A DNA stretch of 53,239 bases from Arthrobacter mangrovi (GTDB taxonomy: Bacteria; Actinomycetota; Actinomycetes; Actinomycetales; Micrococcaceae). Made by a program: the position numbers and the translations under genes. The stretch is taken from the NCBI RefSeq assembly GCF_026011795.1, contig NZ_BRVS01000022.1, positions 1-53,239 on the forward strand, read 5' to 3'. The stretch's first letter is position 1. The number at the start of each line of letters is the position of its first letter. The notes beneath the pieces are model-generated. The model worked only from the letters and a program-made list of their open reading frames with translations. It did no database searches and was not told the DNA's origin. Below, piece after piece: positions 4,591-50,061 of this stretch.

Positions 4591-4722
4591 GCAGATGTCT
4601 GAGTCAAGCTGCCGGATCTGCTCCTGCTGCCGGTTCGGCCTCCCTGGGACCTCAAAAGGGGGAAGCCATCAAATCCGGGGAAGCATTTAGACTCAAGGCG
4701 TTGGGGAGGAAGCGATGGTTTT

Positions 4723-4944: not shown

Positions 4945-5272
4945 CTGTTGTTTCCCGCGGCAATGCTTGATAACCGGTTCCGGGACTTTCAGGCAGTCTC
5001 TTTGCCGGTAATGCTCTGTCCGTCCCCGTCAGGGGGCTTCCACCGTTCATGAAGCTTTGCTTCGGCACCGCGACGCCGGCGCATCTGATCGCGAGAGCCT
5101 TCGATCCTTCCGGACGGAGAAAATGCGCGTTCCTGCCTGCACGCAGCGTCCCACGAACAGCAGAGGGAAGGTGCGGACATTCACACGCGCGCGTAGCGAC
5201 CCGGATCCTCTGGCTTCGAGCCGATTATGCGCCGGGCGCTCCGTTCCAGGGCATGCGGCCTATAGTGGGGGG

Positions 5273-5698
5273 ATGCCGGACCTTAACAACTGGCCGACGG
5301 CGCGGTTGTTGTCCACTGCCGCGCGACTGGTCGAGCATGCCTGGGATGAACAGCTCGCATCCCTGGGCCTGACCCATGCCGGGAGGATTGCGTTGGAAGT
5401 TCTCGATGCCGGCGGTCCCATGGTGCAGGCTGCGGTCGCTGCCGGCGTGCGCGTGCAGGCGCAGACCATGGGGAAGACCTTATCGAGGCTGCAGGCTCAC
5501 GGGCACATCACGCGGGTGCCGAATCAGGCGGACAGGCGCTCCCACCGGGTGGCCGTTTCCGACCTCGGGAGAGCGGTGCTGGTTCGGGCCCGGGAGCTTG
5601 AGCTGACGTTGGCTCCCGGAGGGGACGCCGACGCGGTGGAATTGCGCGACAAGCTGGCGGCCGTCATTCGCCGGCTTGGGTCTGACCGCTGGGGGTAG
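5273..5698 (+). CDS. MarR-family transcriptional regulator
   Basis: 141-aa winged-helix regulator. The recognition region QAAVAAGVRVQAQTMGKTLS, the wing with NQADRRSHRVAVSDLGRAVL, and the flanking helices are typical of MarR proteins, which repress drug, oxidative-stress or catabolic genes as dimers. The start is ATG 5273; TATAGT at 5261-5266 ends six bases before it, which suggests a leaderless transcript. A longer in-frame reading upstream lacks family similarity. A second, decayed copy with the same upstream bases (TGCGCCGGGCGC to the start) lies at 11359. No obvious target gene is adjacent, so its regulon is unknown. Confidence 0.8.
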   Translation: MPDLNNWPTARLLSTAARLVEHAWDEQLASLGLTHAGRIALEVLDAGGPMVQAAVAAGVRVQAQTMGKTLSRLQAHGHITRVPNQADRRSHRVAVSDLGRAVLVRARELELTLAPGGDADAVELRDKLAAVIRRLGSDRWG

Positions 5699-6251
5699 AT
5701 AGAGGGGGACCCGGAGTGAGCGCGACGAATCGGGCTCCCAACCGGACAGATTCGCCGGCATCGGCGTGTTGGCTGCCCCTAGGCCTGGGGCACCGATGTA
5801 CCGGTCAAATATCTCCCCGAAGATCATCGCCTGCATCGGGTCCGATGACGACGATCATTACTGTCCCGGGTTTTGGTGGGTGCCGGCTGCCGTCAGCAAT
5901 GGAGGCGAACATCGCCGGGCCTGCGGCCGGCGCGCCGTAGGCCACGCTCAGCCCTGCGTGTCCGTGCCGGGGTTGGCTTCACGCCTGTGGCGGGGTGAGG
6001 AGAACCGGTCCTCTGCGCAGGTCTGGGGGACTTCCCGGCCAGGTCTGGGGGACTTCCCGGCTAGGGGAACTATTTCCTTGGTGCCATATCGCCGGGTCCC
6101 TATCAGGGCTAACGTAAGGAGTAGACCCTGCGCGTTTGAATTCGCCCCCGGCAGGGGCCGGTTCAGGATCGATTTGTTTCGTACGGTGCACCCGGCGCCG
6201 GTGGAAACACTACTAAGGCCTTCCAGCCAAAGGCGAAGGAAGGCAACAGCG
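5699..6251. other. Gene-free stretch with 22-bp tandem repeat
   Basis: I see no convincing gene between the MarR stop and the DevR-like start. The notable element is a 22-bp unit repeated twice in direct tandem at 6018-6061; its core GGGGGACTTCCCGG is a near palindrome. It lies about 190-235 bases before the response regulator gene and could be its operator. A good ribosome site, AAGGAAGG, is at 6236-6243. Confidence 0.5.
6018..6061 (+). promoter_or_regulatory. 22-bp tandem repeat, candidate operator
   Basis: Two perfect 22-bp copies (6018-6039 and 6040-6061), each containing GGGGGACTTCCCGG. The GGGACTT...CCC core recalls the GGGAC/GTCCC halves of DevR/DosR boxes. It sits upstream of a DevR-like gene, so autoregulation is possible but unproven. 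Confidence 0.4.
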
Positions 6252-31928: not shown

Positions 31929-32023
31929 CAGATCCCCCCCCCATAACCTGCTGCCTGACGACGTGTCCGGCGGCCTCTGTCCTTCACGGTGCTGAAAGCA
32001 CTAACCCATACTAATGACTTATC

Positions 32024-34177
32024 TCAAAGGGAGCCCGGGCCTGATGCGGGATGAATGCTAGTCGCTACTGGAGGCCTTGGCGTCCGCTGCAGCAGAGCGA
32101 GGATAGGTACCATGTCGCCGTCTACCTCTAGCTGCCAGAATTCGAGGCCTGGGATGTTGTCGGCGCCGGCATGATGGGCGGCGGCATCCAGGGAAGCGAA
32201 TTCGTGACCATCGATGATTGCGGCACCGTCCTCCGAGATTTCTGCCCGGATGCGGAGGGATTCATCCGCCGGGGTGAGGAAGTCTTCCGGTTTCAGGACT
32301 CCGGCCTCGATGAGGTCTGATACTTCGGCCGGTCCGGCAAAGCGGGAAGGAGTGACGACGGCGGGCTGCGGGGCAGTGATTGTGGCTGCTCGGCCTGTTT
32401 TAAGTTGCTCGTAGCCGGCACGGGTGACCTGAGCCATGAGAATCCGGCGTTCCTGCAGGAATTCGTCGAAACTCAGTGTTTCCCAGTCTTCCGGCAAGGC
32501 ATGCCAGAACATTTGCCGGCCCAACTCACTGCCGCTGAAATCACGCTCCCGGATTAGGGCCGGCCAGTATTCGCTGGGGGCACGGTCGGAGATCCAGAGG
32601 TTGGTGCTCCAGTCGGTTGGGGCGAAATTGGCGACCTGATTGATCTTTTTCAGGTCTTTGATCCCGACCACTTTCTCCAGGTACTTGCGCGGGTAGAGGT
32701 GATGTCCCTCGGTGCCTTTCGGCGCAGGCAGAGACGGATCCATCCATTGCTGAACCTTGTTGTTCAGCATGAACATATCGGCATCCAGGATGTTCAGTGC
32801 TGCCAGATAGGTCTGGTACGCCGGGGATAACGCTGCGGAGGAGGTGATCAGGGTATCCGGCATTCGCAGAGTCCAGAAATCGTCCGAGAGTTCCGCCGCG
32901 ATGATGGACTCCAGGGTCGAGACAAAGGCCGATTCATCACGGCTGTCCGGTGCAGTGAGGCGGTCCAGATCCTTTTGCAGCTGGGTCTCGGAACTGCCCG
33001 TGTACCGGCCGGAGAGCTGGGACATGAGCAGCCACCTGGCCATGAGGTTGCGTAGGACGGCCAAGTCGACGTTGAAGCGGGTTCGCCCGATGATCCACAG
33101 CGCGTAGCTGGAGAGGATGTTCATATCCGAGGTGATCATCTTGCGGGACTTGAAGCCGGCCACTGCAAGGCAGCGCATGAATTCGGTCCAGTGAAGTTCC
33201 TTGAGCACCAGGGGCAGGCCTGAACGCAGCTTGTTGAGTTCGACTTCCTGACGCTCGGCGTTGACGAAACCGGTGTGGCGGTCCTTGGCCTGTAGGGCGT
33301 TGTAGGCATCGCCCAGTTTGGCGCGATTCTGCCCGACGGCGACCAGCACACGCACCAGCTGGCCCGCGTCCACGGCCAGGTAGTTATTGACCGGGGTCCA
33401 GGCCACCGGCCGGTCGGCGATCTCGCTGGCCCGCTGCGGTGTCAGACGAGAGTCTCGGGCGAACGCTTCCAGCTGTTCTCGTCCTTCGGGCCAGAACACG
33501 CTTAGCCACGTGAGGATGAAATCGGCCGCCTTGAGGCTCACTCCTTCGGAGTTGATGCGCACGAAGATATCCGCAACCACCTTTTTGTCCGCCGAGGGCT
33601 GGATTTCCACGACGGTGAATTCGTAGCTGCGGAGCCGGTCCAATTTTCCGAGGCGGTCTTCAAGCAGCTCCTCGTGCTCCTCGTTGAGCTCTTCCTTGGC
33701 CTCTTCGTAGCGTTTTTTGAAGGCCTTTTTGATTTTGAACGGGTTGAGAAAGAACTCCGAGACGTTTGGGATCCAGTCGGCAGAGTTCTCGATGGCCCTG
33801 TTGGTGACTTCGAACTTTTCGGTGAAGGGGTTGAACGCTATGACCATGCTGCGTGAGTTGTAATCGGCATCGCGGACCGGTGAGCCCTTGAATACCGCGT
33901 AGAGACTGGTCAAGCGCTGCTGGCCGTCAATGATTTGATGTGAACCGGCGCGGTTCGTTGCCCCGGAAATGGCACGTGACGTGTCCTCCTGGGAGACATT
34001 CCAGAACATGAGCTCGCCCACCGGGTATCCGCGATACATCGAGTCGAGCAGGTCACGGATTTTTGCCTTCGGCCACACAAAGGGGCGCTGCAAGTCGGGC
34101 AGCTGAATAACTCCGCTGTGGACATTGTCCACCAGGCTCTGGACGTTCCAACCGACGGGTTTAAAAAGAGTGCTCAC
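32024..34177 (-). CDS. GmrSD-like (DUF262/HNH) nuclease with RAMA-like tail
   Basis: 717-aa protein. The DUF262 domain (about 1-260) has the LPDLQRPFVWP and IIDGQQRLTSLYA motifs; DGQQR is the nucleotide-binding signature of ParB-like DUF262. The DUF1524-type HNH part (about 470-570) shows EGHHLYPRKYLEK, INQVANFAPTDWSTN. Together these make a GmrSD (type IV restriction) protein, which cuts modified phage DNA. The last 100 residues, with VSDLIEAGVLKPEDFL, AAIIDGHEFASLDAAAHHAG and GLEFWQLEVDG, match a RAMA domain, thought to read methylated or modified DNA. It lies 117 bases after hsdR, same strand. Confidence 0.8.
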   Translation of the reverse strand: MSTLFKPVGWNVQSLVDNVHSGVIQLPDLQRPFVWPKAKIRDLLDSMYRGYPVGELMFWNVSQEDTSRAISGATNRAGSHQIIDGQQRLTSLYAVFKGSPVRDADYNSRSMVIAFNPFTEKFEVTNRAIENSADWIPNVSEFFLNPFKIKKAFKKRYEEAKEELNEEHEELLEDRLGKLDRLRSYEFTVVEIQPSADKKVVADIFVRINSEGVSLKAADFILTWLSVFWPEGREQLEAFARDSRLTPQRASEIADRPVAWTPVNNYLAVDAGQLVRVLVAVGQNRAKLGDAYNALQAKDRHTGFVNAERQEVELNKLRSGLPLVLKELHWTEFMRCLAVAGFKSRKMITSDMNILSSYALWIIGRTRFNVDLAVLRNLMARWLLMSQLSGRYTGSSETQLQKDLDRLTAPDSRDESAFVSTLESIIAAELSDDFWTLRMPDTLITSSAALSPAYQTYLAALNILDADMFMLNNKVQQWMDPSLPAPKGTEGHHLYPRKYLEKVVGIKDLKKINQVANFAPTDWSTNLWISDRAPSEYWPALIRERDFSGSELGRQMFWHALPEDWETLSFDEFLQERRILMAQVTRAGYEQLKTGRAATITAPQPAVVTPSRFAGPAEVSDLIEAGVLKPEDFLTPADESLRIRAEISEDGAAIIDGHEFASLDAAAHHAGADNIPGLEFWQLEVDGDMVPILALLQRTPRPPVATSIHPASGPGSL

Positions 34178-34294
34178 GCAGCGCCTCCTGTGCGGTGAAC
34201 GTCGGCTTGTGCCGGTGCGTTTTGCGCGACAAAAAGTGGGTTTCCAGAGTCTAAATTCAAGGGTCCGCCTGAGGCGACGCCACTATCGGGCTTA

Positions 34295-37200
34295 TTAGCT
34301 GGCATGTACCCCACGTCCTTCTGCAAACCGTGGTGCCATGGACTCCATCTGTTCCATGACCAGCTTGATGGCGGCGGGCTGCTTGTCCGGCGGGTACCCG
34401 AACCTGACCAGCAGCCGTTTAATGGAGGACCGCAGCTTCGCCCGTACATCGTCCCGCACGGTCCAATCGGTCCGTACATCCCGGCGCATGACGGAGACCA
34501 GTTCCCGGGCAATGTCGGCGAGCACGCCTTCGCCCTGGACCTCGACCGCGGATTCGTTCTGGGCCACGGCATCGTAGAACGCCAACTCGTCGTTGTTCAG
34601 AGGAGGCGAGAAGTGTTCACCACGGTTGCCCTCGGCTGCCACTTCCTTGGCCAGCTCTACCAGTTCGGCAATGACCTCGGCCGAGGTTAGCTGCTGGTTT
34701 GTGTACTTGTTCATCAGCTCGGTAATCCGATCCGAGAACGCCCGCTGACGTACCAGGTTGTTCCGGGTCGTTTTCGCTGATTCATCGGTGATCAGCTTCC
34801 GTAGGGCCTCGATCGCCAGCTGAGAGTTGCGGGCCTGCTTCGTCTTAGCGATGAACTCTGGTGTGAGGTCGTCCAGCGAAGGTTTGGGCATGCCGGCGGC
34901 GTTGTAGATGTCCAGGACCTCGCCGGTTTCCGTGGCGGTGGCGATCAACTCGTTGAGCATCCGTTGGATCTCGGCAGGAATGGGCTCGCCGCGTGACTGC
35001 CGCTCGTCGGCGTCGAACTTGGCCATCCAGACCCGGATCTCCTCGTATACCTGGATCTCCGGCCGCAATTCGGCCAGTGTCTCGGATCCGGAGGATAGGG
35101 CCCAGGCCCGTGACAGTTGGCCGGAGAACCGCCGATACTTTGAGGCCACGGTCTCCTCCCCGTCAGAGGATGGTTGGTTGCCGGGGGTGGCGGGGTTCCG
35201 CAGGTAGTTGACCGCTCCGGTGACCGCGTTGAGGAAGCCCTTGGGTCCGCCCTTCAGCCAGACCGATTTCCAGTCGTATCCGGCCAACAGCCCGCGCAGC
35301 GTCTCCACCAGGGTGACCGTCAACGCCACTGCTTCGTCGATGTTCTTGCCGACGGGCTTCTTTTCTTGGTCGGTGCGGGTGTATTCTTCCAGCGCCTTGG
35401 CAAGGTTCTCTGCCAGCGGTGCATAGGCGACCAGCAAGCCGTCTTCCTTGCCGCGGAAGGTGCGGTTCACCCGGGCCAAGGTCTGCATCAGCAGTGCACC
35501 CTTCAGCGGCCGGTCCAGATACAGAGTGTGTAGGGGAGGGGAGTCGTATCCCGTGAGCATCATGTCCTTGACAATCACGATCTCCAGCTCATCGTTGACG
35601 TCCTTGAGCCGCTCCTTGATCACCGCATTCTGGGAATCCCGTCTCACATGGTCGGACACCGGCGGTACATCGGAGGCGGTGCCGGAATAGACGACCTTGA
35701 TTTTGCCCTTGTCCAGCTGGTCCGAGTGCCAGCCCGGACGCAGCGCCGTGATGGCCGTGTACAGGTTGGCGCAGATCTCCCGGGTGCCGCCCACAATCAG
35801 TGCCTTGCCGGGTGCCTCGATGAACTTGCACATCTGCTCCCTGCGGTTCTCCCAGTGGGTCACCAGGTCCTCGGCCAGGGCCGCAATGCGCTTCGGTGCT
35901 CCGTAGACGGCATTGACGACGGCGACGCTCCTCTCGATGCGCGCCCGTTCCGTTTCGTCCAGCCCGACCGTGGCTTCGTCCGCGGCTTCGTCGATGACCT
36001 CCTGGGTTACGTCTTCCGCCAACCCGACCTTGATCAGCCGCGGCTCGAAATAGACAGGCACGGTGGCCCCGTCTTCCACGGCCCGGGAGAGGTCGTAGAT
36101 GTCTATATAGTCACCGAATACCTCGCGGGTGTTGCGGTCATCGAAAGAGATCGGAGTGCCGGTGAACGCGATCAGGGTGGTGTGCGGCAGCGCGTCGCGC
36201 AGGTGCCGGGCGTAGCCGTCCAGGTCGTCGTAGTGGCTGCGGTGCGCCTCATCGACCACCACGATGATGTTCCGTCGCTCGGACAGCAACGGATGGTCAA
36301 AGCCCGCGTCCTTCTCGTCCTTGCTGCGGCCGAACTTCTGCAATGTGGTGAAGTATATGCCGCCAGTGGTCCGGTTGCTCAGCTCCTCCCGCAGCTGGGA
36401 ACGCTTGCGGATCTGCTTCGGGTCCTCCGGCAGCAGCAGGCTGCGCGCGAACGTCTCGTACAGCTGTCCGTCCAGCTCGTTGCGGTCAGTGATCACCACC
36501 AGGGTGGGATTCTTCAGCTTTGGGTGCCGGCTGACAAGGTTGGCGTAAAGCTCCATCTCCATGGACTTCCCCGAGCCCTGGGTATGCCAGACGACGCCGG
36601 CCTTGCCGTTGCTCTCCACCGCCTGGACCGTGCTGCCGACCGCCTTGGTGACCGCGAAGTACTGGTGCGGCTTGGCGATCCGCTTGGCCAGCCCGCCGGA
36701 GCCCTGGTCGAAGGCCGTGAAGTTTCGCAGCAGCTGCAGGAACCGCTCCTGGTTGTACAGACCCAGCAACGCGGTCTCCAAACCCGTGGTGGGCTCACCG
36801 TCCTGCAGATCGCCTGGGCGAACGACGGTGCCGTCGTCGTCGACATTCCACGGCGAGAAATGGTTCAGCGGTGTGAACGGCGTGCCGTACTTAGCGAGAA
36901 TCCCGTCCGAGGCCAGCGTGAGCACGCAAAAGCGGAAAGCCATGGGGAACTCGCGCAGGTAGGTCTGCAGCTGGGCGTGTGCGGCGGCAACGTCCGCCGC
37001 CGCACTGCCGGCCTTCTTGAGCTCGACGATGCTAACCGGCATACCGTTGCAGTAGAGCACGATGTCGAACCGGCGCCGGTAATCGCCTTGGACGATGGTC
37101 ACTTGGTTGACGACCAGCCAGTCATTCTCGTCCGGATCCGCGCTGATCAGGCGGATGGTCGGATTTGACTCCGTGCCGTCCGAGTCGATGTAGGTTAGTC

Positions 37201-37501
37201 GGAATCCGTCCACTAGGTAGTGGTGAATTCGGTGGTTCTCAGTGACCGCATCATTAGATTTGGGCTGGGTGATCTCCGCCAAAGCCTGCTTCAGATACTG
37301 CGCCGGGACCGTGGGATTCAGCTTCTGCAGTGCCTCGAGCAGGCGTTGGCGGAGCAACAGCTCATCCCATGACTCCCGCATACCGGAACCCGGGGCGATG
37401 GCATCACCGGATGCCCGCTTCCACCCAAGAGGCTCGGCCAACTGGTCCAGGGCCAGGCCCTCCCACTCAGCCTCCGTGAAGCTCGTGACTGTCTGTGTCA
37501 T
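34295..37501 (-). CDS. hsdR: Type I restriction subunit HsdR
   Basis: 1068-aa motor and nuclease subunit. The N-terminal PD-(D/E)xK nuclease shows RFDIVLYCNGMPVSIVELKK. The translocase has Walker A HTQGSGKSMEM, DEAH box VVVDEAHRSHY, and TGTPISFDDRNT. A C-terminal helical domain follows (about 780-1068). Length and order are normal. It is expected to join HsdM and HsdS and cut unmodified DNA after translocation. It starts 146 bases after the end of hsdS, on the same strand. It appears intact, so the system may be active. Confidence 0.93.
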   Translation of the reverse strand: MTQTVTSFTEAEWEGLALDQLAEPLGWKRASGDAIAPGSGMRESWDELLLRQRLLEALQKLNPTVPAQYLKQALAEITQPKSNDAVTENHRIHHYLVDGFRLTYIDSDGTESNPTIRLISADPDENDWLVVNQVTIVQGDYRRRFDIVLYCNGMPVSIVELKKAGSAAADVAAAHAQLQTYLREFPMAFRFCVLTLASDGILAKYGTPFTPLNHFSPWNVDDDGTVVRPGDLQDGEPTTGLETALLGLYNQERFLQLLRNFTAFDQGSGGLAKRIAKPHQYFAVTKAVGSTVQAVESNGKAGVVWHTQGSGKSMEMELYANLVSRHPKLKNPTLVVITDRNELDGQLYETFARSLLLPEDPKQIRKRSQLREELSNRTTGGIYFTTLQKFGRSKDEKDAGFDHPLLSERRNIIVVVDEAHRSHYDDLDGYARHLRDALPHTTLIAFTGTPISFDDRNTREVFGDYIDIYDLSRAVEDGATVPVYFEPRLIKVGLAEDVTQEVIDEAADEATVGLDETERARIERSVAVVNAVYGAPKRIAALAEDLVTHWENRREQMCKFIEAPGKALIVGGTREICANLYTAITALRPGWHSDQLDKGKIKVVYSGTASDVPPVSDHVRRDSQNAVIKERLKDVNDELEIVIVKDMMLTGYDSPPLHTLYLDRPLKGALLMQTLARVNRTFRGKEDGLLVAYAPLAENLAKALEEYTRTDQEKKPVGKNIDEAVALTVTLVETLRGLLAGYDWKSVWLKGGPKGFLNAVTGAVNYLRNPATPGNQPSSDGEETVASKYRRFSGQLSRAWALSSGSETLAELRPEIQVYEEIRVWMAKFDADERQSRGEPIPAEIQRMLNELIATATETGEVLDIYNAAGMPKPSLDDLTPEFIAKTKQARNSQLAIEALRKLITDESAKTTRNNLVRQRAFSDRITELMNKYTNQQLTSAEVIAELVELAKEVAAEGNRGEHFSPPLNNDELAFYDAVAQNESAVEVQGEGVLADIARELVSVMRRDVRTDWTVRDDVRAKLRSSIKRLLVRFGYPPDKQPAAIKLVMEQMESMAPRFAEGRGVHAS

Positions 37502-37647
37502 TGCTGATGTCCTCCCCAGGGACTGAGTTCTGTTCTATGCACACTACTGCTGCATGGCTGCGCGCTTTCAAAGTTGTGAATCCACAACCTCGATGCTGTA
37601 CCAAATTCCAGCAACCTGTGTTGCAGAAAGTGGCCAACTAACCAGAA

Positions 37648-38763
37648 TCATGCGACGTCGTCGACCATTGTCTCCGCGTCCTTTACCCGTAGCTTGCCTG
37701 ACATCAGTTTTGGAAGCAGCGCATCGCGGGTGGCATCCAGTCTCATGTTTTCCTCAGTAAGGGAGTGGATATGTTCTCTCATAGGAGCAGCGAGTGATTC
37801 GAACTCGTTTCTGGCCTCCACTGGGAGTAACGGAACTAGTGCATCGGCAAAACGATCCGCACGTACGGCAGGATATGCGCTTCCTTCAGCGACGTTTTCC
37901 AAGTATGCAGTGAACTGGGGAAGTCTGGTTATTTCGTATAGATAGGCGAATCCGACTTTGACCGGAGAAAGAACAGCCAATCCTGTTGAACCGACCAGTA
38001 ACGGATCGTCGGAGAGGTTCAAGGCATGTGATCGCCGGTTGGGGCGCACCGTTGACCAGATTGTGTCACCCTTGCTCACCTTTCGGCGCGCACGAGAAGG
38101 CGCGTCATCCCAGGAAGAGATCTCGGGAAAGCTGTATGAGCCGACATCGACAGTAGATATGTCGATGTATCGCAGTAGGCCTCCGGGAACGGGTTTTTGC
38201 GTCTCTGCATTGACTCTCGCGATGGAACCTAAAGCCACTTCTTCGGAACCGTGCTGAGCTAATGTTGCAAACCTTGCTGCCAGAAGTTCATCGCTAATGC
38301 CTGCAAGCTTGGCGCTGGCGGCAATCTTCTCGTCGAGGGCCCCAAGTACTTCCGCAATCGCCCCCTGCTCGTGAATTGGTGGAACGGCTACGGGAACCCT
38401 AGCTATGTAATTTCGGTTCAGCATCGGCTGCACAGAACCGGAGTCAAAGCCAGCAAGATCGGTATTTTCGAATAGGTGATAGACCCAGCGCCGATTATTT
38501 CCCTTAAAGTCCTTCACGAACATTGTCGTGTTGTGGGGCCAAAAGTCGACATCAGACCATTTCGGCTTTCCGAGGTTCGTCGCCCTGCCGATGGTTACAC
38601 CGGGCCCCTCAACTGGCCCTTCGTCGTGGAACCCACCTGTCTCACCGGACGTAAGTACGGGATAGGGCCCTGGGCGGCGGGCATGGTGCGGCAGGTCGAA
38701 TCCCCGCTGGATTTCCACGACGTCCGCAAGGCATTTGGTTTGCCAGCCTTCAGGGATATTCAC
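37648..38763 (-). CDS. hsdS: Type I specificity subunit HsdS
   Basis: 371-aa specificity subunit with two target-recognition domains (about 5-150 and 180-330), each followed by a coiled conserved region: GAIAEVLGALDEKIAASAKLA and EENMRLDATRDALLPKLMSG. I start it at GTG 38763, whose GTGA overlaps the hsdM stop by four bases; a longer reading into hsdM is a shadow. Each domain should recognise one half of a bipartite DNA site; the sequence cannot be predicted by eye. Both domains look complete. Confidence 0.9.
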   Translation of the reverse strand: MNIPEGWQTKCLADVVEIQRGFDLPHHARRPGPYPVLTSGETGGFHDEGPVEGPGVTIGRATNLGKPKWSDVDFWPHNTTMFVKDFKGNNRRWVYHLFENTDLAGFDSGSVQPMLNRNYIARVPVAVPPIHEQGAIAEVLGALDEKIAASAKLAGISDELLAARFATLAQHGSEEVALGSIARVNAETQKPVPGGLLRYIDISTVDVGSYSFPEISSWDDAPSRARRKVSKGDTIWSTVRPNRRSHALNLSDDPLLVGSTGLAVLSPVKVGFAYLYEITRLPQFTAYLENVAEGSAYPAVRADRFADALVPLLPVEARNEFESLAAPMREHIHSLTEENMRLDATRDALLPKLMSGKLRVKDAETMVDDVA

Positions 38764-40376
38764 TGCATCCTTCCCAACTGCTCTCGCACAACCTTGGCCA
38801 GGCGCTCTGATTCCTCGAACTGCTCGAACAGCTCCTTGTTCAGCCGTGCGATCTTGTCTTCGATCGGCTCGCCGTCGTCCTGCGCTTCTGCGGTGCCGAC
38901 GTACCGGCCGGGTGTCAGCGAGTAGTCCGCAGCCTTGATCTCCGCCAGGGAGGCCGAGTAGCAGAAGCCGGGTTCGTCGTCGTACTTCAGCCCGGAGTGC
39001 CCCGCGGAAGCGGTGCCGCGCCATACGTGGTAGGTGTTCGCGATCTTCGCGATGTCCTCGTCGGAGAGGGCACGTTCGGCGCGGTCGATCATGTGGCCCA
39101 GGTGCCGGGCGTCGATGAAGAGCACCTGACCGGTCCGGTCCACGGAACCGCGCGCTCCAACTCCCTTGTCATTGGCGAAGAACCAAGTACAGACGGGGAT
39201 GCCGGTGCTGCGGAAGAGCTGGGTGGGCAGGGCCACCATGCAGGAGACCAGATCCGCCTCCACCAGCTGGGCACGGATTTCGCCTTCACCGCCGGAGTTG
39301 GAGGACATCGAGCCGTTGGCCATCACCACCCCGGCCGAACCGCCGGGGGCGAGCTTGGAGATGATGTGCTGGATCCAGGCGTAGTTAGCGTTGTTGGCCG
39401 GGGGCACGCCGTACTTCCAGCGCGGGTCGGACTCGGAGCGAGCCCAGTCCTTGATGTTGAAGGGCGGATTGGCCATGATGTAGTCCGCCTGCATGTCCGG
39501 ATGCTGGTCCCGGGCGAAGGTGTCGCCCCAGCGGGAGGCCAGGTTGCCGTTGAGGCCGTGGATGGCCAAGTTCATCTTGGCCATGCGCCAGGTGCGCTCG
39601 TTGAGCTCCTGCCCGTACACGGAAATATCCGAGCCCTCCTTGTGGTGGGCCTCCAAGAACTTCTCGGTCTGCACAAACATGCCGCCGGAACCGCAGCACG
39701 GGTCGTAGACGCGACCGCTGGTCGGCTCCAGCACCTCCACCAGGACGCGAACGACGCCGGCGGGCGTGTAAAACTCCCCGCCCCGCTTGCCCTCGGCACG
39801 GGCGAACTTCTCCAGGAAGTATTCGTAGACCTCACCCAGCAAGTCGCGGGCCTTCTTAGCGCCCTCGCCGGTGAAGCGGGCGGAGTTGAAGAGATCCAGC
39901 AGCTCGCCCAGTCGGCGCTGGTCCACATTGTCCCGGTTGTACAGGCGGGGCAGGGTTGCCGCCAGCGACGGGTTGGCGGTCATGAGCGCGTCCATGGCCT
40001 CATCGACGAGCTGGCCGATCGACTTGGCCGGCTCGCCGCCGATGGCGGGCAGTCCCTTGGCGTTCTCGGCCAGGTAGACCCAGCGGGCGGAGGCGGGCAC
40101 CCAGAAGACGCCGCGGCCGGTGTACTCGTCCACGTCGTCGATCAGCTGGGCGATCTGGTCCTCGTCCATCCCTTCGCCCGCCAGCTCGGCGTGGATCTGC
40201 TCGCGCCGCTCATCGAATGCGTCGGAGACGTACTTGAGGAACACCAGTCCCAGGATCACGTCCTTGTACTGGGACGCGTCCATGGAGCCGCGCAGCTTGT
40301 CCGCGGCCTTCCACAGGGTGTCCTTCAGTTCCTTCATGGTCGATGGCAGCGCATCCACCTTCTTCTTTGGAGGCAT
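38760..40376 (-). CDS. hsdM: Type I methyltransferase subunit HsdM
   Basis: 538-aa N6-adenine methyltransferase. The N-terminal helical domain (MKELKDTLWKAADKLRGSMD...) is the HsdM_N type; motif I is VYDPCCGSGGMFVQ and motif IV is YIMANPPFNIKDW, both intact. It modifies the site chosen by HsdS, protecting host DNA. The ATG 40376 overlaps the stop of the upstream gene by one base (TGATG), and its stop overlaps hsdS, so the three genes are translationally coupled. Confidence 0.95.
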   Translation of the reverse strand: MPPKKKVDALPSTMKELKDTLWKAADKLRGSMDASQYKDVILGLVFLKYVSDAFDERREQIHAELAGEGMDEDQIAQLIDDVDEYTGRGVFWVPASARWVYLAENAKGLPAIGGEPAKSIGQLVDEAMDALMTANPSLAATLPRLYNRDNVDQRRLGELLDLFNSARFTGEGAKKARDLLGEVYEYFLEKFARAEGKRGGEFYTPAGVVRVLVEVLEPTSGRVYDPCCGSGGMFVQTEKFLEAHHKEGSDISVYGQELNERTWRMAKMNLAIHGLNGNLASRWGDTFARDQHPDMQADYIMANPPFNIKDWARSESDPRWKYGVPPANNANYAWIQHIISKLAPGGSAGVVMANGSMSSNSGGEGEIRAQLVEADLVSCMVALPTQLFRSTGIPVCTWFFANDKGVGARGSVDRTGQVLFIDARHLGHMIDRAERALSDEDIAKIANTYHVWRGTASAGHSGLKYDDEPGFCYSASLAEIKAADYSLTPGRYVGTAEAQDDGEPIEDKIARLNKELFEQFEESERLAKVVREQLGRMQ

Positions 40377-42421
40377 CAGCCGGTTCCTTTCATTGACACG
40401 ATCTTCAGGCGGCTGCCGGTCGCGCCGTCCACGATCAGGGATTCAAGTTCGGTAAGTGCGTCCAGCCGGCGCCGGGCCTGCTCGCGCACTTCTCGTAGTT
40501 CATGCAGCGCCGCCTTTAACGGTGCTTGCGCGGTTTCGGGCAGGCGGCGGACGGGCCAGCGCTTCCACCGGCCGCCGTTGGATGGTGCAGCGTTGATGTC
40601 AGCGGCCAACACCTCGGCCAGCAGGCCGCCGGGATCGGTATCGCTGATCCGCAGCACCCGGACCGGAAAAGACACGACGGCGCCGCCCTTAGCGTCCACC
40701 CATGCTGCGGTCCGCTCCCCGGTACAGAACACGACGTCCCCGGGTTCGGTCCGGCGGGCGGCTGGATAGGTGGCGGCCAGCACCAGCTGGTCGATACGCC
40801 GGTCACCAGGCTCGGTCTGTCCGAGCAGTTCCGGGAGACCGAGGAGGCACACGCGTCCCGTTCCACGGCTCATCAGGAGTCTTTCATCTAAGCGGTTGCC
40901 CGGCAGGTATTTCAGGTTCCCGGCAGCGATCATCTCACCCACTGTGGACGGTGCGGGGTACACGTCCGAATTCGCAGCTTCTAGGTCCAGTTCCAGCCGT
41001 GTCGGTGCGGGTTCCTCATTGAGGGCGCCCACCAAGGCATCGATGCGTGCGGCGGCTTCGGAGCCGGACGCGGTGGCAGAAGGCGGTGTTGCCGTGTGCA
41101 GCAGGGATCCGCGGCCGGCCAGCAGGGTGCGGGTATAGACGAGCCGGGCGAAGCGGAACGAGTGCGCCCGCAAAACCGCGCGGCTACCCATGGAGGCGGC
41201 GAGGTCGCTGATCACGTCCTCGCGGACGTCCGCGGTCAGGTCCTGTCCAGACAGGTCCGCAACCATGGTCCAGCGCTCGGCGATGTCCACGTCCCGCTGC
41301 GACGGTCCCAGCACCCACAAAGCCTGGGCCTGCCGGGGCTTCATTTTCAGCAGCCCCTGCGGCAGCCGGACCGCGGCACGCAGGGTGCCCAGGCGCAGCA
41401 GGCCAGAGCGCAGATCATCGGCTTCCTGAGATGCCAGGGCATCGACCAGTACCCCGGCCGGGCCGATGATCACACCGCGCTGTTCATCGTTCATCTGCAG
41501 CATGATGTTCTCCACCGTGGTCAGGATCTGCACGGGGGACATGTCCCGGTGACCGGGCGGCGGGAACTGGGCCACATGCACCACCGGGCCGGTCAGGCCG
41601 AAACGTCCGGCCGCGTCCCCCTCCAGGTTCTTCCACTGCACTCCGTGGATCCGCAGCCTTCGCCGCAGCAGCCGGGAAACGTCGTCGTCGTTGGCTGTGG
41701 TCATGAAAGTCAGATGCGCGTCCTCGCCGGAGTACCGCACGATCTGCATAAGCAGGTCGCTGCCGCCAGCGGTGCCGTCAACGAACACCGGCACCTCCCG
41801 GTTCGGCTGGCTGGAACCCAGTTCGACGGCGGCGGCCGCCAACAGGTCGATCGCCTCTTGAGTGAATGCGGCGGCGGCCTGTTCCCGCTGGCCGTTGCGG
41901 AAGCGGTCCGCCATCAGCTTTTCGAACGCGGCCTCCGGGCTGTAGGCGGCATCGGCCAGCAGATCGGTGTAGGCGGCAATCCGGGGCAAGTCTTCTCCGA
42001 GAGCTTCGAGCTCAGAGTAGAGGAATCCGTCGTCCGGGTCGACGGCGTCCGCCTCATCCAGCAGATCGTCGGTGATCAGGCCGTGCAGCGGCCGGTCCAA
42101 CAATCTGCGGAGCGTGAGCAGAGCCGTGATGCCGGCTACATGCCGACCCGGGTGCCGGCGGAAACCGTCTAGAGCCGCGAAGGCGGCAATGTCCTCGGCA
42201 GCGTTCGGGTTGTTTCCGCGGCCGGTGGCGGCCAGCCAGTCCAAGAGCTCGGCGGCATCGAAGAGTTCCAAAGCGTTTTCAACGTCGGCGGGGGCAGGGA
42301 AAGGCGCGGCGGTGTCGCGGCTTCGGGTTCGCCACATGGACACGACCGGGCGCTGGACCCGGGTGAGCAGGGCGATGTCGGTAAGGGTGAGGCGCAGCTG
42401 AACGCGCGCTTGTGTCTGCAC
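40376..42421 (-). CDS. HTH-containing degenerate N6-methylase-like protein
   Basis: 681-aa protein, first gene of the operon. The start is GTG 42421, with GGAAGGGGG 5 bases upstream; longer reading enters the promoter. The N terminus has a helix-turn-helix (LTDIALLTRVQRPVVSMWRTR). The middle has the layout of an N6-adenine methylase, but key motifs are altered: motif I reads VFVDGTAGGSDLL, and the place of NPPF reads VAQFPPPG, without Asn. Methyl transfer therefore seems unlikely. The end (about 490-681) looks like a target-recognition domain and a helical tail, as in HsdS or PglX. Its stop overlaps hsdM. Possible roles: a regulator, or an alternative specificity partner. Confidence 0.7.
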   Translation of the reverse strand: MQTQARVQLRLTLTDIALLTRVQRPVVSMWRTRSRDTAAPFPAPADVENALELFDAAELLDWLAATGRGNNPNAAEDIAAFAALDGFRRHPGRHVAGITALLTLRRLLDRPLHGLITDDLLDEADAVDPDDGFLYSELEALGEDLPRIAAYTDLLADAAYSPEAAFEKLMADRFRNGQREQAAAAFTQEAIDLLAAAAVELGSSQPNREVPVFVDGTAGGSDLLMQIVRYSGEDAHLTFMTTANDDDVSRLLRRRLRIHGVQWKNLEGDAAGRFGLTGPVVHVAQFPPPGHRDMSPVQILTTVENIMLQMNDEQRGVIIGPAGVLVDALASQEADDLRSGLLRLGTLRAAVRLPQGLLKMKPRQAQALWVLGPSQRDVDIAERWTMVADLSGQDLTADVREDVISDLAASMGSRAVLRAHSFRFARLVYTRTLLAGRGSLLHTATPPSATASGSEAAARIDALVGALNEEPAPTRLELDLEAANSDVYPAPSTVGEMIAAGNLKYLPGNRLDERLLMSRGTGRVCLLGLPELLGQTEPGDRRIDQLVLAATYPAARRTEPGDVVFCTGERTAAWVDAKGGAVVSFPVRVLRISDTDPGGLLAEVLAADINAAPSNGGRWKRWPVRRLPETAQAPLKAALHELREVREQARRRLDALTELESLIVDGATGSRLKIVSMKGTG

Positions 42422-42702
42422 TGATCCCCCTTCCGCGCGTCGTCCATTCTCGCATTTCCCTGGGTGGTAACGGAGCCAGCCTAACTGTGAGCCGCAACGC
42501 TTCCGTTGCAATTTGCTGATAAGGGGGGTTATCGGGATATTTCGGAAAGTCTCACCGAACGGTTTGTATTGTCGTTCCTGCCCGGGCGGTTGAAGGGGGA
42601 GCAATCGTCCGGGCTCTTACACGGTGAACCGATCCACCACTTTTTGTCAGGACCAGTCGATAGGCTGAGACGGTGATGGTGTTGGGGAAAGGATTAAGGG
42701 GA
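42422..42702. promoter_or_regulatory. Divergent promoter region between defence operons
   Basis: 281 bases between the minus-strand restriction operon and the plus-strand TIR operon. A TAGGCT box at 42661-42666 may be the -10 of the TIR operon; no good -35 was found. GGTTATCGGG at 42524-42533 is reminiscent of the border motif's last half but is not a copy. The degenerate methylase with its HTH could bind here. Confidence 0.45.
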
Positions 42703-43074
42703 ATGACAGACAAGAAGATCGTTTTCGTTGCTTTCGCAATTGAGGATGAGCGGCAGCGGGATTTCCTGAAGGGGCAGTCGCTGTCCCCCCGAGCGCCCTA
42801 CGAGTTCATCGATATGTCGGTGAAGGAAGCGTACGACTCTGATTGGAAGGCTAAAGTCCGCACGCGAATCAAGCGATCGCACGGCGTGATAGTGCTAGTC
42901 AGCAGTAATTCACTCACATCTTCCGGCCAGAAGTGGGAGATCTCCTGCGCGAAAGAGGAAGGAAAGCCCATTCTCGGTATCTGGGCCTACTCCAACGACC
43001 GCACCTCCGTCGCCGGCGTTCGCACGGTCACCTGGAGTGACAAGAACATCAGCGACTTTATCGATTCCCTGTAG
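42703..43074 (+). CDS. ThsB-like TIR-domain protein
   Basis: 123-aa TIR-like protein of the ThsB/MTH538 type. The order fits: KIVFVAFAIEDE (first strand), a second segment YEFIDMSVKEAY, IKRSHGVIVLVSSNS, then GQKWEISCAKEEGKPILGIW. Glu79 in KWEIS is in the place of the catalytic Glu of ThsB. Such proteins sense phage and make NAD-derived cyclic nucleotides such as cADPR isomers. ATG 42703 is chosen from GGGAAAGGA about 9 bases upstream; an earlier GTG/ATG at 42673/42676 would add 9-10 residues. The caspase-like gene starts 6 bases after it. Confidence 0.8.
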   Translation: MTDKKIVFVAFAIEDERQRDFLKGQSLSPRAPYEFIDMSVKEAYDSDWKAKVRTRIKRSHGVIVLVSSNSLTSSGQKWEISCAKEEGKPILGIWAYSNDRTSVAGVRTVTWSDKNISDFIDSL

Positions 43075-43080
43075 AAGCAG

Positions 43081-44067
43081 ATGCGTAAAGCACTCATTGT
43101 CGGAATCGACTACTACGAGCACATTGGGGGTCTTCGCGGCTGCGTGAATGACGCCCACAGTGTGAACGCGGTCCTGGAGCGACAGGCAGACGGGACACTC
43201 AACTTTCCAAATCCACGGCTGCTGACCAGCACAGGTTCTGGAGCTGCTGTTAGGCGGTCGGAGCTAAAGGATGCCGTCCGAGAACTGTTTCGTGACGACG
43301 CTGAAGTAGCGCTGTTTTATTTCTCCGGGCACGGCTATCTCGAAGACACAGGCGGCTTCCTATGCTCCAGTGATGCCCGCACTGGCGACGATGGACTTTC
43401 TCTGAGCGAGGTGATGACTCTGGCCAATCAATCGCCAGCGACGAACAAGGTCATCATGCTTGACAGCTGTCATAGCGGTGCTGCGGCGACCGACCCTATC
43501 GATGCCCGGCAGGCAGAAATCCGGGACGGGGTCACGATCTTGGCCGCGTCAACGGCGGATCAGTACGCGATGGAGGAAGGCGGCTCGGGAGTTTTCACCA
43601 GCCTCCTCGTGGACGCGTTGAATGGGGCTGCAGCAAACCTGGTCGGGGACATCACTCCCGGTAGCGTCTATGCACACATCGACCAGTCGCTGGGGCCGTG
43701 GCAGCAACGGCCCGTCTTCAAGACGAATGTGAAGACCTTCGTATCGTTGCGGCGCGCGAAAGCCCCAGTCGCACTCACGGAGTTGCAGCAGCTCACATCG
43801 ATCTTCCCAGTTCCCGAGTACCAGCTTCCCCTTGATCCGTCCTACGAACCCGAACGATCCGCTGAACAAACGGCTGACCCATCAATCCCAGCACCGAATC
43901 CAGCGAGGAACGCGACGTTCAAGATCCTGCAAAACTACGTCAAGGTAAACCTAGTCCGCCCAGTGGATGCTCCGCATATGTACCATGCGGCCATGGGAAG
44001 CAAGGCATGCGAGCTCACCGTACTTGGCCAGCACTATTGGAATCTCGTCGACCAGAGGCTGATTTGA
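43081..44067 (+). CDS. Caspase-like protease (peptidase C14)
   Basis: 328-aa cysteine protease. The p20-like domain (1-210) starts [10 protein letters not shown]. The catalytic pair is visible: His84 in LFYFSGHGY and Cys130 in [10 protein letters not shown] linker rich in Pro (about 245-275) leads to a C-terminal helical domain, ending [17 protein letters not shown], of unknown role, perhaps signal binding or auto-inhibition. No membrane segment. It follows the TIR gene by 6 bases and overlaps the RyR-like gene by one, so the three are one unit. In type IV Thoeris a caspase-like protein is switched on by the TIR product and degrades cell proteins; the same is likely here. Confidence 0.85.
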
Positions 44068-44372
44068 TGATGCGGTCCGAATCCAACCTTGTCGATTTCT
44101 TACAAACCGAAGCGGCCCTTGAAGCGGTTGCTGCAGTTGAGCATGACCGGTGGGCGCACTGGCAGCGGTACCTGCATGCTCAGTGCATCGAAGGTCAGGA
44201 TGGCAGCCTTCTCATTCCGGCGACACTCGTAGACCGGTGGAGCAGGCAACTATCCACTCCGTACTCAGAACTGAGCGATAGTGAGAAGGACAGTGACCGC
44301 GAGCAAGCCCGCGAGTACCTCGCCGCTCTGATCCGAGTCCAGCAAAATAAGGCCCGGCATTACCCGGACTGA
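44067..44372 (+). CDS. Small RyR-like domain protein
   Basis: 101-aa protein made of one RyR-like (ryanodine receptor repeat) domain. The pattern is VAAVEHDRWAHWQRYLHAQC, then LIPATLVDRWSRQLSTPYSEL and SEKDSDREQAREYL, matching the family's (E)HxxW helix and PxxxLxxxEKxxDR helix. In bacteria RyR domains occur in conflict systems and phages and are proposed to bind nucleotide signals. ATG 44067 overlaps the caspase stop (TGATG); the next ATG 44070 is equally possible. As a free-standing partner of a TIR and a caspase-like protein, it could be the sensor, a sponge for the signal, or an activator of the protease. Confidence 0.75.
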   Translation: MMRSESNLVDFLQTEAALEAVAAVEHDRWAHWQRYLHAQCIEGQDGSLLIPATLVDRWSRQLSTPYSELSDSEKDSDREQAREYLAALIRVQQNKARHYPD

Positions 44373-44475: not shown

Positions 44476-45188
44476 ATGCAGCAGGACAACGTTGCCTACT
44501 GGACCGTCGTTGCACAAATCGTTCCTGTGCTTGGTTTAGCAGCCGTCGTTGAAATCCGTCTTATTCGCTGGCACAAGCTCCTACCTCTCAGGCGATACGG
44601 TCTAGGCTTCTTTGCCTCGTCCGTGCTCTTGGCCTAGGTTATGCCGGCGTCACATCCTTGCAGGTGCTACTGGGAGAATCACAGGGCCTCGACTTCCCCT
44701 TCACGCGAAAGCTTGCCTTCTGGGCCATGTACTTCGGGCTTTTCGGTGTCATGGTTCTTCCAGCGACTCAGCTGTGGCTGGTGGTATTCGCCGATTTCTC
44801 ATGGAGAGGTGTGTTCCAGCTGCTGCGCCTGGGGGCCCGAAGGCGCAAGTCCCGCCAGCAGCATAAGAAACTCGCGCAGAATATCGCCACGCTAAGGGAT
44901 ATGAGAGCTGGGCTCCGACTGGAGATGGCGGAGCACGTCATTAGGAATCCGGACCGGACTTTCGTTGCCCGTGATGGTCGTGTATCCCTAGCCCCAGGCA
45001 ATCCCTATTCGGCTGGCGTGAAAGAACAGCTTGAGAAGCTAACCCAGACCATCGAGGGATGGGAACAGGAGTTGGAGAATTGGGAAAGGGACGCAGCCGC
45101 CGAGATGAGTGATTTCATTCGGGTGAGCGGGAGCGCTTCGAAGGAGACAACTAAGAAGCTTCGCCAATACCAAGCGGGCTGGAAGTAG
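44476..45188 (+). pseudogene. Multi-TM membrane protein, frameshifted
   Basis: A membrane protein split over two frames. The first (44476-44637) encodes YWTVVAQIVPVLGLAAVVEI and LGFFASSVLLA and stops at TAG; the second frame carries on with LGLGYAGVTSLQVLL, WAMYFGLFGVMVLPATQLWL and a hydrophilic tail with a coiled-coil stretch (KEQLEKLTQTIEGWEQELEN). Joined near 44625 they give about three membrane segments and a cytoplasmic domain of about 120 residues. AAGGA lies 9 bases before ATG 44476, so the start is good. It follows the RyR-like gene by 103 bases on the same strand. It may be a membrane effector of the system, broken by a recent shift or a sequence error. Confidence 0.6.
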
Positions 45189-45483: not shown

Positions 45484-46023
45484 ATGAAGCAATGGGTCCG
45501 ACTGCATCCCCGGTGGGCAACGGCACTGGCGTTGCTTGTTGAGTGGTTGATCCTGGCGGTTGTCTTCCTGCTTTTCGGGCGTCCGTTACTAGACGCGAGC
45601 ATCGAATCAGGAATGTGGACCGCAGCTTCTGGCATAGTGTGGGCGTTCGAATCTCGGCGATCTCGCAGGACAGCAGCCCGCCTCGACGAGCATGGCCAAG
45701 TTCTGGCCTATGTGCGTTACCCCGACTCGCGTCCGGGCTCCCTCAGCGGAATCTGGAATATGGGCATCGCGACGCCTCAGGTTGGATGGATCGACTTTCA
45801 GCCCGCCGTGTATGACACCTTAGAACCATCGGGGCGCCCCATGAAGATCCAGGTTCTGGAGGTGCGTCCCGAGCGCCGGGCTATCAGCGGCAGGGAGCGG
45901 AAGTACGTCTCTGGCCTGGGGAACCAGGCTATGACTGTGGTGACAGAGACAGGCAGAGTGGAGATCGCGGGTGACCCTGATTCACTAGACAAGCTCGCCG
46001 ACGCAGCAAAGCGACGACCGTGA
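45484..46023 (+). CDS. Membrane protein with possible PH-like domain
   Basis: 179-aa protein. Two closely spaced N-terminal membrane segments (ATALALLVEWLILAVVFLLFG and a weaker one near 40-55) are followed by a cytoplasmic, strand-rich part (about 70-179): LAYVRYPDSRPGSLSGIW, VGWIDFQPAVYDTLE, KIQVLEVRPERR, AMTVVTETGRVEIAG. The strand spacing resembles PH-like domains of actinobacterial membrane proteins such as DUF2550, but I cannot confirm it. ATG 45484 has no clear ribosome site; the TAAGAT box at 45472-45477 ends six bases before it and suggests a leaderless transcript. It may be unrelated to the TIR operon. Confidence 0.6.
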   Translation: MKQWVRLHPRWATALALLVEWLILAVVFLLFGRPLLDASIESGMWTAASGIVWAFESRRSRRTAARLDEHGQVLAYVRYPDSRPGSLSGIWNMGIATPQVGWIDFQPAVYDTLEPSGRPMKIQVLEVRPERRAISGRERKYVSGLGNQAMTVVTETGRVEIAGDPDSLDKLADAAKRRP

Positions 46024-48115: not shown

Positions 48116-48688
48116 TTAGGGAGTTCGTTGGACAATCCGATACACCGTGCTGCGGGCAACCTTGAACAGTTCCGCGATCTCCGTGGTCGTGTGGTTGCCT
48201 CCCTTATATAGGGAGACAAGGTGGGCTTCCTGACTCTTGGAGAGCTTGGGCTGCTTACCGCGGAGCCGGCCTTTGGCCTTGGCGACCTGCATGCCTTCAC
48301 GCGTACGGGCGCGGATGAGGTCGGCTTCGAACTCGGCGACCATCGCCAGGACGTTAAAGAGGAGCCGGCCGACCGGATCCGAGGGGTCATGGACGGAGCC
48401 GCCGATGCTGAGCTTCACTTCCTTCTTCGTCAGCTCTTCGACAATGTCCCGGGCATCGGGGACAGAGCGGGCGAGCCGGTCAAGCTTCGTCACGACCAGG
48501 GTGTCGCCGTCGCGGACCGCGGCAATCGCCTCGCGCAATCCAGGGCGGGCGCGATTCGTTCCGGTCAGCCCGTGGTCGGTGTAGATCCGATCCTCGGGGA
48601 CACCGAGGGCAGCTAGCCCGTTGCGCTGGGCTGTGAGGTCCTGCTGATTAGTTGAAACCCGGGCGTATCCGACGAGGTGTGCAGTCAC
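48116..48688 (-). CDS. Serine recombinase (resolvase/invertase)
   Basis: 190-aa small serine recombinase. The nucleophile Ser is in GYARVSTNQQD; the Arg motif is KLDRLARSV; the E helix MVAEFEADLIRART leads to a C-terminal helix-turn-helix (TTTEIAELFKVARSTVYRIVQ). Resolvases of this size act on res sites next to their gene. It is adjacent to the IS30 element but belongs to another family; no Tn3-type transposase is in the window, so it is probably a remnant or a stand-alone resolvase. Upstream (48689-48823) are AT-richer bases that could hold a res site. Confidence 0.9.
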   Translation of the reverse strand: MTAHLVGYARVSTNQQDLTAQRNGLAALGVPEDRIYTDHGLTGTNRARPGLREAIAAVRDGDTLVVTKLDRLARSVPDARDIVEELTKKEVKLSIGGSVHDPSDPVGRLLFNVLAMVAEFEADLIRARTREGMQVAKAKGRLRGKQPKLSKSQEAHLVSLYKGGNHTTTEIAELFKVARSTVYRIVQRTP

Positions 48689-48823
48689 CCGACTGAGTGT
48701 AGCGGTTGGGGCACCTTAACCGGGCTTTTTAACGGGCGGGGTATATGCGAATCGACGAGCCCAGTAGTTGTATGGAATTTTCTTCGGCAGGGGAGCGGCG
48801 ATCGAGTATTGCGGTGAAGGACC

Positions 48824-50061
48824 GGTGAATTCATGCGGTCGTTGCAACGAGGGGCACTTCGGGGTCCAACAGTAGCCGCTGCATGGCTTGTGCGGGGCTG
48901 ATTCCGCCGAGAATCTTGCGGGGCCGGTCGTTCAGTTCGGCTGCAACTTCCAGCAGACGCTCCGGGGCGTGGACGGACAGGTCGGTCCCTTTGGGGAAGT
49001 ACTGCCGCAGCAAGCCGTTGGCGTTTTCGTTGGAGCCGCGTTGCCAAGGACTGTGCGGGTCACAGAAATAGATGTCCATCTTCGTAGCCAGGGTGATCTC
49101 CCGGTGCCTGGCCAGCTCGGTGCCCTGATCCCAGGTCAGGGACTTGCGCAGGTGTGTCGGGAGGGTGGCAATCACGGCCAGGAGCGCGTCGCGGACGGCC
49201 GGGGCGCCGTGGTCATCAGGGAGATGGACGAGCATCACGTAGCGGGTCTTGCGTTCGACCAAAGTGGCGATGGCCGACCGGCAGTTCGAGCCAAGAACTA
49301 GATCGCCCTCCCAATGCCCGGGCACGGCACGGTCAGCGACCTCGGCAGGGCGTTCACTGATCAGGACCATGTCAGGGATCTTTGATGGGCGTTTTCCGGT
49401 GCGTCCGCGCGGCCGCCTCACCGCGCGGCCGGTGCGCAGATGCTGGTGCAGGCCGGTGCGCAGCCCGCCGCGCCCCTGAACAAACAGGGCCTGGTAGATG
49501 GTTTCGTGGGAGACCCGCATCCGGCTCTGGTCGGGAAAATTTTCATCGAGGTGGAGACTGATCTGCTCCGGGCTCCATTTCACGCACAGTTTGGTCTGCA
49601 CCAGTAATGCCAGCTCGGGATAGTCAAACTTACTGGCCTTCGGCCGGCGTCCGCGGAACTCTGCCCGCTTCTGCGCGGCATAAGGAGCATAGGCATTACG
49701 GGTGCTGCCGTTTCGACGCAGCTCACGGCTTACGGTTGAAGCCGACCTCCCGATCCCGAGGGCAATCGAACGCACCGAGGCACCGGACAACCGCAGATCT
49801 GCGATCTGCAAGCGTTCATCCAATGACAGATACCGCCCGGAGGGTTTGAGGCGTCTCCGCGGTATTCGTCCGCCGGTTGCCAGGCGCCAACGCCGCCCTG
49901 TTTGTCTGTTCACACCCACAGCATCACACGCCGCAGTCAATGTGGAACCCCCGGCCATCAACACCCAAAACGCGGCCCGCATACCCGCCAAATCCCGTCG
50001 GGAAACCATACACAACACCTCACATCAAAACGCGGCGTTGCGACGACCCTTTGAACTCGCC
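48824..50061 (-). mobile_element. IS30-family insertion sequence
   Basis: About 1238 bp. Imperfect 26-bp terminal repeats at 48824-48849 and 50036-50061: the left end begins GGTGAATTCATGCGGTCG, the right end, read inward, GGCGAGTTCAAAGGGTCG. A single transposase gene fills it. A 2-3 bp target duplication is expected for the family; the flanks ACC and ACT do not match exactly, so the ends could be off by a base or two. No gene seems to be interrupted. Confidence 0.8.
48831..50018 (-). CDS. IS30-family transposase
   Basis: 395-aa DDE transposase, full length. The N-terminal HTH region includes YLSLDERLQIADLRLSGASV and ALGIGRSASTVSRELRRNG. The catalytic triad can be placed in GHWEGDLVLG (first Asp), LTWDQGTELA (second Asp) and QRGSNENANGLLRQYFPKGT (Glu). 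All motifs are present and no frameshift is seen, so the element may be active. The start is GTG/ATG near 50018 inside the right terminal repeat region. Confidence 0.92.
   Translation of the reverse strand: MLCMVSRRDLAGMRAAFWVLMAGGSTLTAACDAVGVNRQTGRRWRLATGGRIPRRRLKPSGRYLSLDERLQIADLRLSGASVRSIALGIGRSASTVSRELRRNGSTRNAYAPYAAQKRAEFRGRRPKASKFDYPELALLVQTKLCVKWSPEQISLHLDENFPDQSRMRVSHETIYQALFVQGRGGLRTGLHQHLRTGRAVRRPRGRTGKRPSKIPDMVLISERPAEVADRAVPGHWEGDLVLGSNCRSAIATLVERKTRYVMLVHLPDDHGAPAVRDALLAVIATLPTHLRKSLTWDQGTELARHREITLATKMDIYFCDPHSPWQRGSNENANGLLRQYFPKGTDLSVHAPERLLEVAAELNDRPRKILGGISPAQAMQRLLLDPEVPLVATTA

Follow-up and report, generated by a model that had tools for sequence, protein, structure and literature searches.

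A TIR gene, a caspase gene and a RyR-like gene are packed into one operon

The window analyzed here is a 53,239-nucleotide stretch of Arthrobacter mangrovi DNA. Three tightly packed genes lie on its plus strand, with open reading frames and starts where the initial annotation, made from the sequence alone, had placed them. They encode a ThsB-like TIR protein of 123 aa (42703-43074), a caspase/metacaspase-type protease of 328 aa whose C-terminal domain is conserved (43081-44067), and a RyR-like protein of 101 aa (44067-44372). Six bases separate the TIR gene from the caspase gene, and the caspase gene overlaps the RyR-like gene by one base. An alternative in-frame GTG start for the TIR protein lies at 42673 on the plus strand, 30 bases upstream of the ATG. 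The operon is separated by a gap (42605-42702) from a divergent minus-strand ORF with a mechanical TTG start at 42604; a sigma-70 consensus scan of this gap found no promoter or site for the operon.

Divergent from the trio, the minus strand carries a large defence block (26640-42604). It is headed by a 742-aa protein that had no Pfam or PADLOC match, and it also encodes a helicase with an MTES_1575 nuclease (1762 aa), a GmrSD-type protein (717 aa), and HsdR, HsdS and HsdM, the last three identifying the restriction operon that had been proposed at this place. Downstream of the trio, two plus-strand ORFs (44658-45188, 176 aa, and 45484-46023, 179 aa) gave no Pfam or PADLOC match and fall outside the conserved trio. 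Further downstream, the minus strand (48116-50018) encodes a serine resolvase and a transposase with an integrase core, as matched in Pfam; we take the transposase to be IS30-like. The resolvase and the transposase suggest a mobile defence island.

The TIR protein scored 39.1 bits against Pfam ThsB_TIR (cut-off 21.2, E 1e-9), and its catalytic Glu79 (codon 42937-42939, plus strand) is identical in all 72 aligned TIR proteins. The protease scored 69.7 bits against Pfam Peptidase_C14 (cut-off 21.4, E 4e-19). Its His84 (codon 43330-43332) and Cys130 (codon 43468-43470), both on the plus strand, had been named beforehand, and they are invariant in the aligned caspases (42/42 and 51/51, respectively). 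Residues 1-325 also match the phage family phrog_18397 (1.1e-77). An AlphaFold2 model of the protease (pLDDT 92) was closest to MALT1 among the best 50 of 830 Foldseek matches, followed by caspases and metacaspases; a Geobacter protein was also among these 50, and none of them was named as TIR-linked.

The third protein counts as a distant RyR-domain relative by sequence

Profiles were needed to place the third protein, because single-sequence scans of PHROGs, NCBIfam and PADLOC returned nothing for it and Pfam returned a sub-threshold match only. On its own, the protein scored 21.0 bits against PF02026, under the cut-off of 27.4, and it went undetected when the genome that contains the window was searched with PF02026. 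Among its 35 aligned relatives, 25 match PF02026 at E <= 0.01 (best 2.1e-5). With a profile of 18 operon homologues, ryanodine-receptor entries were the top PDB matches (best E 8.8e-6), and ryanodine-receptor or bacterial RyR entries made up 15 of the 16 PDB matches listed at E <= 1. Comparison by hhalign of the RyR-like profile with PF02026 domains of other genomes gave probabilities of 92.8% and 93.8%, the latter with an E value of 1.8e-7; the target comprised 20 PF02026 domains taken from the 26 matches listed. The RyR-like assignment thus stands at profile level. The predicted structure has four helices (pLDDT 93); when it was compared by Foldseek with PDB and BFVD, nothing matched at E <= 0.001. 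We therefore count the protein as a distant RyR-domain relative by sequence, not by fold.

A phage protein of the same domain type offers a functional comparison. The accessible part of a 2026 preprint describes RyDEP (DyoEdafos gp78), an RyR-domain anti-Thoeris protein that is a homodimer; the genes tested in this part are phage genes only (PMC13232231). As described there, RyDEP hydrolyses 2'/3'cADPR through the catalytic residues His75 and Asp117, Trp78 stacks on the adenine, and His100 contacts the phosphates; the homologues H4 and H7 sequester the signal instead, and all three proteins defeat Thoeris (PMC13232231). Before RyDEP, according to the same portion of the text, no protein hydrolysing 2'cADPR or 3'cADPR was known (PMC13232231). 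It further places RyDEP in a cluster with sequences of mostly bacterial and viral origin (PMC13232231).

In an alignment with RyDEP, to which the window protein is 23% identical, His26 (codon 44142-44144), Trp29 (44151-44153) and Asp77 (44295-44297), all on the plus strand, align with His75, Trp78 and Asp117, respectively. All 46 aligned copies, from operons and viruses, agree in these three columns, which account for three of the seven invariant ones; the spacing from His to Trp varies among the copies. This alignment comprised the window, 16 genome loci, the phage locus L081, and 27 of 31 viral loci, which contributed 28 rows; the genome near copies L010, L012 and L054 and the viral loci L098, L099, L116 and L117 were excluded. 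The window protein thus resembles RyDEP as a small RyR-type-domain protein in which the His, the Asp and the adenine-stacking Trp are conserved in register. It differs in that the phosphate-contacting His100 is not kept (Arg60 in the window, in a variable column), and in that RyDEP is a phage evasion gene whereas the window gene sits inside a defence operon. The window protein may hydrolyse 2'/3'cADPR. Intact His and Asp are nevertheless no proof of catalysis: of eight phage homologues examined alongside RyDEP, six bound the signals but not one hydrolysed 2'/3'cADPR, as reported in the accessible part of the preprint (PMC13232231).

Viral relatives of the RyR-like protein mostly stand alone

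An annotated phage collection held RyR relatives in 10 records, namely nine Microcystis/cyanophage records and MT835687 (L081), the last with the full trio. IMG/VR yielded 31 loci with RyR relatives at 35-61% identity, the upper value holding over ~66 residues. Neither a TIR nor a caspase was present in the stretch fetched for 30 of these 31 loci; the remaining locus (L095) had both. Phage identity was checked at five loci: the RyR gene lies between terminase and portal genes in L092, ~1 kb from a tail sheath gene in L088, and near endolysin genes in L089 and L091, and in L087 the one neighbour examined belongs to a family without known function. In the opposite direction, a search for the caspase on viral contigs gave 32 loci, 18 of them with a nearby TIR, and an RyR gene was present only on the contig of L095. 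Two of the viral-contig caspases (L169 and L179), at 59 and 61% identity, have no RyR. We also noted one viral contig (L094) with two RyR-like genes, at 337-603 and 4986-5225, ~4.4 kb apart.

The RyR tree places viral copies among those of operons, within a single starred clade of 37 members (97/96). The tree could not be rooted (the RyDEP branch measures 10 changes per column), and with the copies mixed in this way it gives no direction between a phage and an operon origin of the gene.

The RyR-like gene is retained within one group of TIR-caspase loci

A scan of species genomes found 176 relatives of the caspase, the best 80 of which were examined. The three-gene order was conserved beside other TIR-caspase pairs: a same-strand RyR gene follows the caspase gene directly in 19 of the 80 loci, or in 19 of the 77 that extend at least 350 bases beyond the caspase. 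With the chosen start, the RyR start and the caspase stop have one base in common in 11 of these 19 loci. The other 61 loci have no adjacent RyR gene, three of them ending too early to tell. A same-strand TIR gene lies within 700 bases of the caspase in 71 of the 80.

A caspase tree was built from 79 rows (the 80 loci without L010, L012, L050 and L054, plus the window, L081 and L082). RyR carriers form one group on it (18/18 versus 0/61 outside), a single change is needed, and no RyR loss is seen within the carrier clade. The branch has a support of 65, and the group spans Actinomycetota and alpha-, beta- and gamma-Proteobacteria. All 18 RyR-linked TIR proteins fall within one starred 21-row TIR clade (SH-aLRT 100), which fits one signal class. 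The TIR proteins of three loci without RyR (L053, L061 and L065) also lie inside this clade.

The window's order was covered by 297 genomes, four with RyR and eight with the caspase (E <= 1e-30). The four RyR genomes are those with the four closest caspases (E 2.5e-154 or better), and each carries the full trio; the other four have distant caspases only and no RyR. Of 396 genomes of the phylum, four have RyR, two of which had been counted before. In the third, RyR adjoins a caspase remnant (residues 254-328 only). In the fourth, the 6.4-kb contig with the RyR gene has no TIR or caspase, and by eye it looks phage-derived.

On plasmids, 39 records matched the caspase (E <= 1e-60) and 22 matched RyR (E <= 1e-3). 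Twenty of the 22 RyR matches share a locus with a caspase; in 18 of them, at most 100 bases separate the RyR match from that of the caspase, and the other two are in loci with other gene orders. Every plasmid caspase with at least 64% identity, ten in all, is accompanied by RyR. Of the 39 caspase records, 19 are without RyR, and one of these 19 is a partial caspase at 63.3%. One record (L139) gave a weak RyR match only and no caspase or TIR match. Chance adjacency of the three genes was ruled out by the order-wide and plasmid counts, since the trio recurs in other genomes and on plasmids.

The two other gene orders are TIR-TIR divergent from RyR-caspase-metallophosphoesterase (L136) and TIR-caspase-subtilase-CHAT-TIR-RyR (L137, a Sphingomonas plasmid, 1598-6216). 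With two TIR proteins, three predicted proteases (caspase, subtilase and CHAT) and RyR, L137 is a possible multi-protease TIR system. When five RyR-bearing caspases, chosen for having RyR, were added to the caspase tree, L136 and L137 fell far from the main group and starred branches forced at least two changes. Two gains of RyR are the simplest story, the count of changes being blind to gain versus loss.

We noted two loci (L129 and the plasmid locus L138) in which the caspase is reduced to its C-terminal end, a remnant retained beside an RyR gene that is still open. Few pairs of loci were informative for dN/dS. In L004/L005, the ratio was 0.14 for RyR, 0.03 for the caspase and 0.13 for the TIR protein; in L001/L002, it was 0.30 for RyR; the near-identical L008/L010 showed zero amino-acid change in RyR at a dS of 0.065; the remaining pairs were saturated or identical. 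These values are signs of purifying selection on RyR. Between the window and L001, RyR is less conserved (64%) than its partners (79% and 83%).

The RyR-like protein may be a host brake on TIR signalling

The trio is very probably a functional unit. A TIR-caspase system, type IV Thoeris, reportedly goes back to Rousset et al. in 2025. According to the accessible parts of two papers, type IV Thoeris is such a TIR-caspase system (PMC12847820, PMC13373217), in which the TIR protein makes N7-cADPR, which activates the caspase-like protease (PMC12847820). The window shares with it an adjacent TIR protein and caspase-like protease in one operon, and an intact catalytic Glu and His/Cys dyad. It differs by its third, RyR-like gene, and the published ThsA/ThsB pair was compared by description only. 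By analogy with these relatives in print, a TIR signal would act on the caspase here too, and RyR proteins would bind or cut cADPR isomers; the TIR product may likewise be N7-cADPR activating the protease.

Our main reading, to which we give a probability of about 0.5, is that the trio is a type IV Thoeris-like TIR-caspase variant in which the RyR protein acts as a host brake by binding, and perhaps degrading, what the TIR protein makes. The TIR protein would sense infection and turn NAD+ into an ADP-ribose-derived signal; this signal would activate the caspase-like protease, which would degrade cell proteins and so stop the phage. The RyR-domain protein would bind the same signal and sequester or slowly hydrolyse it. 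It would thereby set a threshold against accidental firing, and it could also switch the response off, much like the ring nucleases and Csx15 sponges of type III CRISPR.

As the operon copy has the same pocket residues as RyDEP, it most simply binds the product of its own TIR protein; if it does, the effect should be inhibitory, making the protein a brake or terminator. We infer both the binding and the net braking effect for the window. N7-cADPR, by its name, presumably does not contain the ribose-ribose bond at which RyDEP acts. Accordingly, either another isomer is made here, or RyR only sequesters, or its chemistry is different. The TIR-caspase pathway would not generally depend on such a brake, given that no RyR is seen in the 61 genome loci and the 19 plasmid records above or in the three loci whose TIR proteins group with RyR-linked ones.

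The initial annotation had proposed that the RyR-like protein senses, stores or relays the TIR product to the protease; roles in degradation and braking are not considered in it. Storage, in the sense of sequestration, fits best; phage RyR proteins bind TIR-made nucleotides in the accessible part of the preprint (PMC13232231). Relay fits least. A receptor that binds the TIR product and must join the caspase for activation would accord with the overlap of its gene with that of the caspase and with its retention in the clade, and RyR domains do bind adenine nucleotides in the accessible account (PMC13232231). The same caspase family, however, occurs without an adjacent RyR in 61 of 80 loci. Its C-terminal domain, which we assume to be the site for the signal, is also conserved either way: of 30 positions from residue 226 onward that are at least 80% conserved in the RyR-less group, 28 have the same commonest residue in the RyR-bearing group. 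The exceptions are position 265, filled in few rows, and position 301 (Tyr to Trp), and a single column in the whole protein, position 95, separates the two groups. Moreover, the characterised phage RyR proteins inhibit Thoeris, as far as the available portion of the preprint goes (PMC13232231). An obligatory relay is thus less likely, and we regard it as improbable.

Equally unlikely in our estimate is an antitoxin-like brake, in which the RyR protein would silence the TIR protein or the caspase by direct contact rather than via a nucleotide. A small protein, encoded last in the operon by a gene that overlaps that of a toxic effector and shows no losses in the clade, would suit such a role. 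Direct contact leaves unexplained, however, why three of the seven invariant columns are ligand-site residues of RyDEP, and why viral relatives with the same residues occur without TIR or caspase.

Since RyDEP is a homodimer, a host copy might poison phage RyR sponges through mixed dimers, or it might sense them. The mixing of viral copies, up to 61% identical over ~66 residues, with operon copies on the tree would accord with this counter-counter-defence, but a dimer poison has no need of conserved pocket residues, and we consider the idea highly improbable. It is just as doubtful that RyR is a passenger, brought next to its target as an anti-Thoeris gene of a phage or plasmid and kept there by linkage: relatives on viral contigs, TIR-caspase-RyR loci on plasmids and persistence beside two decayed caspases would fit, but 18/18 retention across phyla, the signs of purifying selection and a link to RyR at two places far apart on the caspase tree argue against it.

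Returning to the host brake, we tentatively propose, at slightly under even odds, that with the RyR gene the cell encodes its own means of terminating TIR immune signals. Its product, a homologue of RyDEP, would soak up or hydrolyse a signal of the cADPR type, and the gene would be common to defence and counter-defence. There is a parallel in type III CRISPR, where, in the accessible part of the source, some members of the Csx15/ring nuclease group cut the signal and some only sequester it, and ring nucleases are encoded by viruses and plasmids too (PMC13148439). The likeness is one of logic only, with one family both cutting and sequestering a signal; the fold there is CARF and the ligand is cyclic tetra-adenylate.

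An RyR gene beside TIR and caspase genes is potentially a new regulatory principle. It makes testable whether bacteria can switch off TIR signals with a protein of their own, and whether genes pass between phage sponges and host regulators. A further, long-standing question that it touches on is whether RyR domains respond to cADPR; if our reading is true, a ryanodine-receptor domain would be tied to TIR-made nucleotides within a bacterial immune operon. In a literature search of titles and abstract beginnings, PMC13232231 alone joined RyR-domain proteins and TIR signals, and the system may have been described before; the terms "ryanodine", "RyR" and "R12" do not occur in PMC9503650.

Lastly, we noted two tandem TIR genes ahead of the caspase gene in eight RyR-less loci (L026, L029, L033, L040, L043, L044, L045 and L055), and likewise in some other loci. 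These are perhaps two sensors or a TIR heterodimer.
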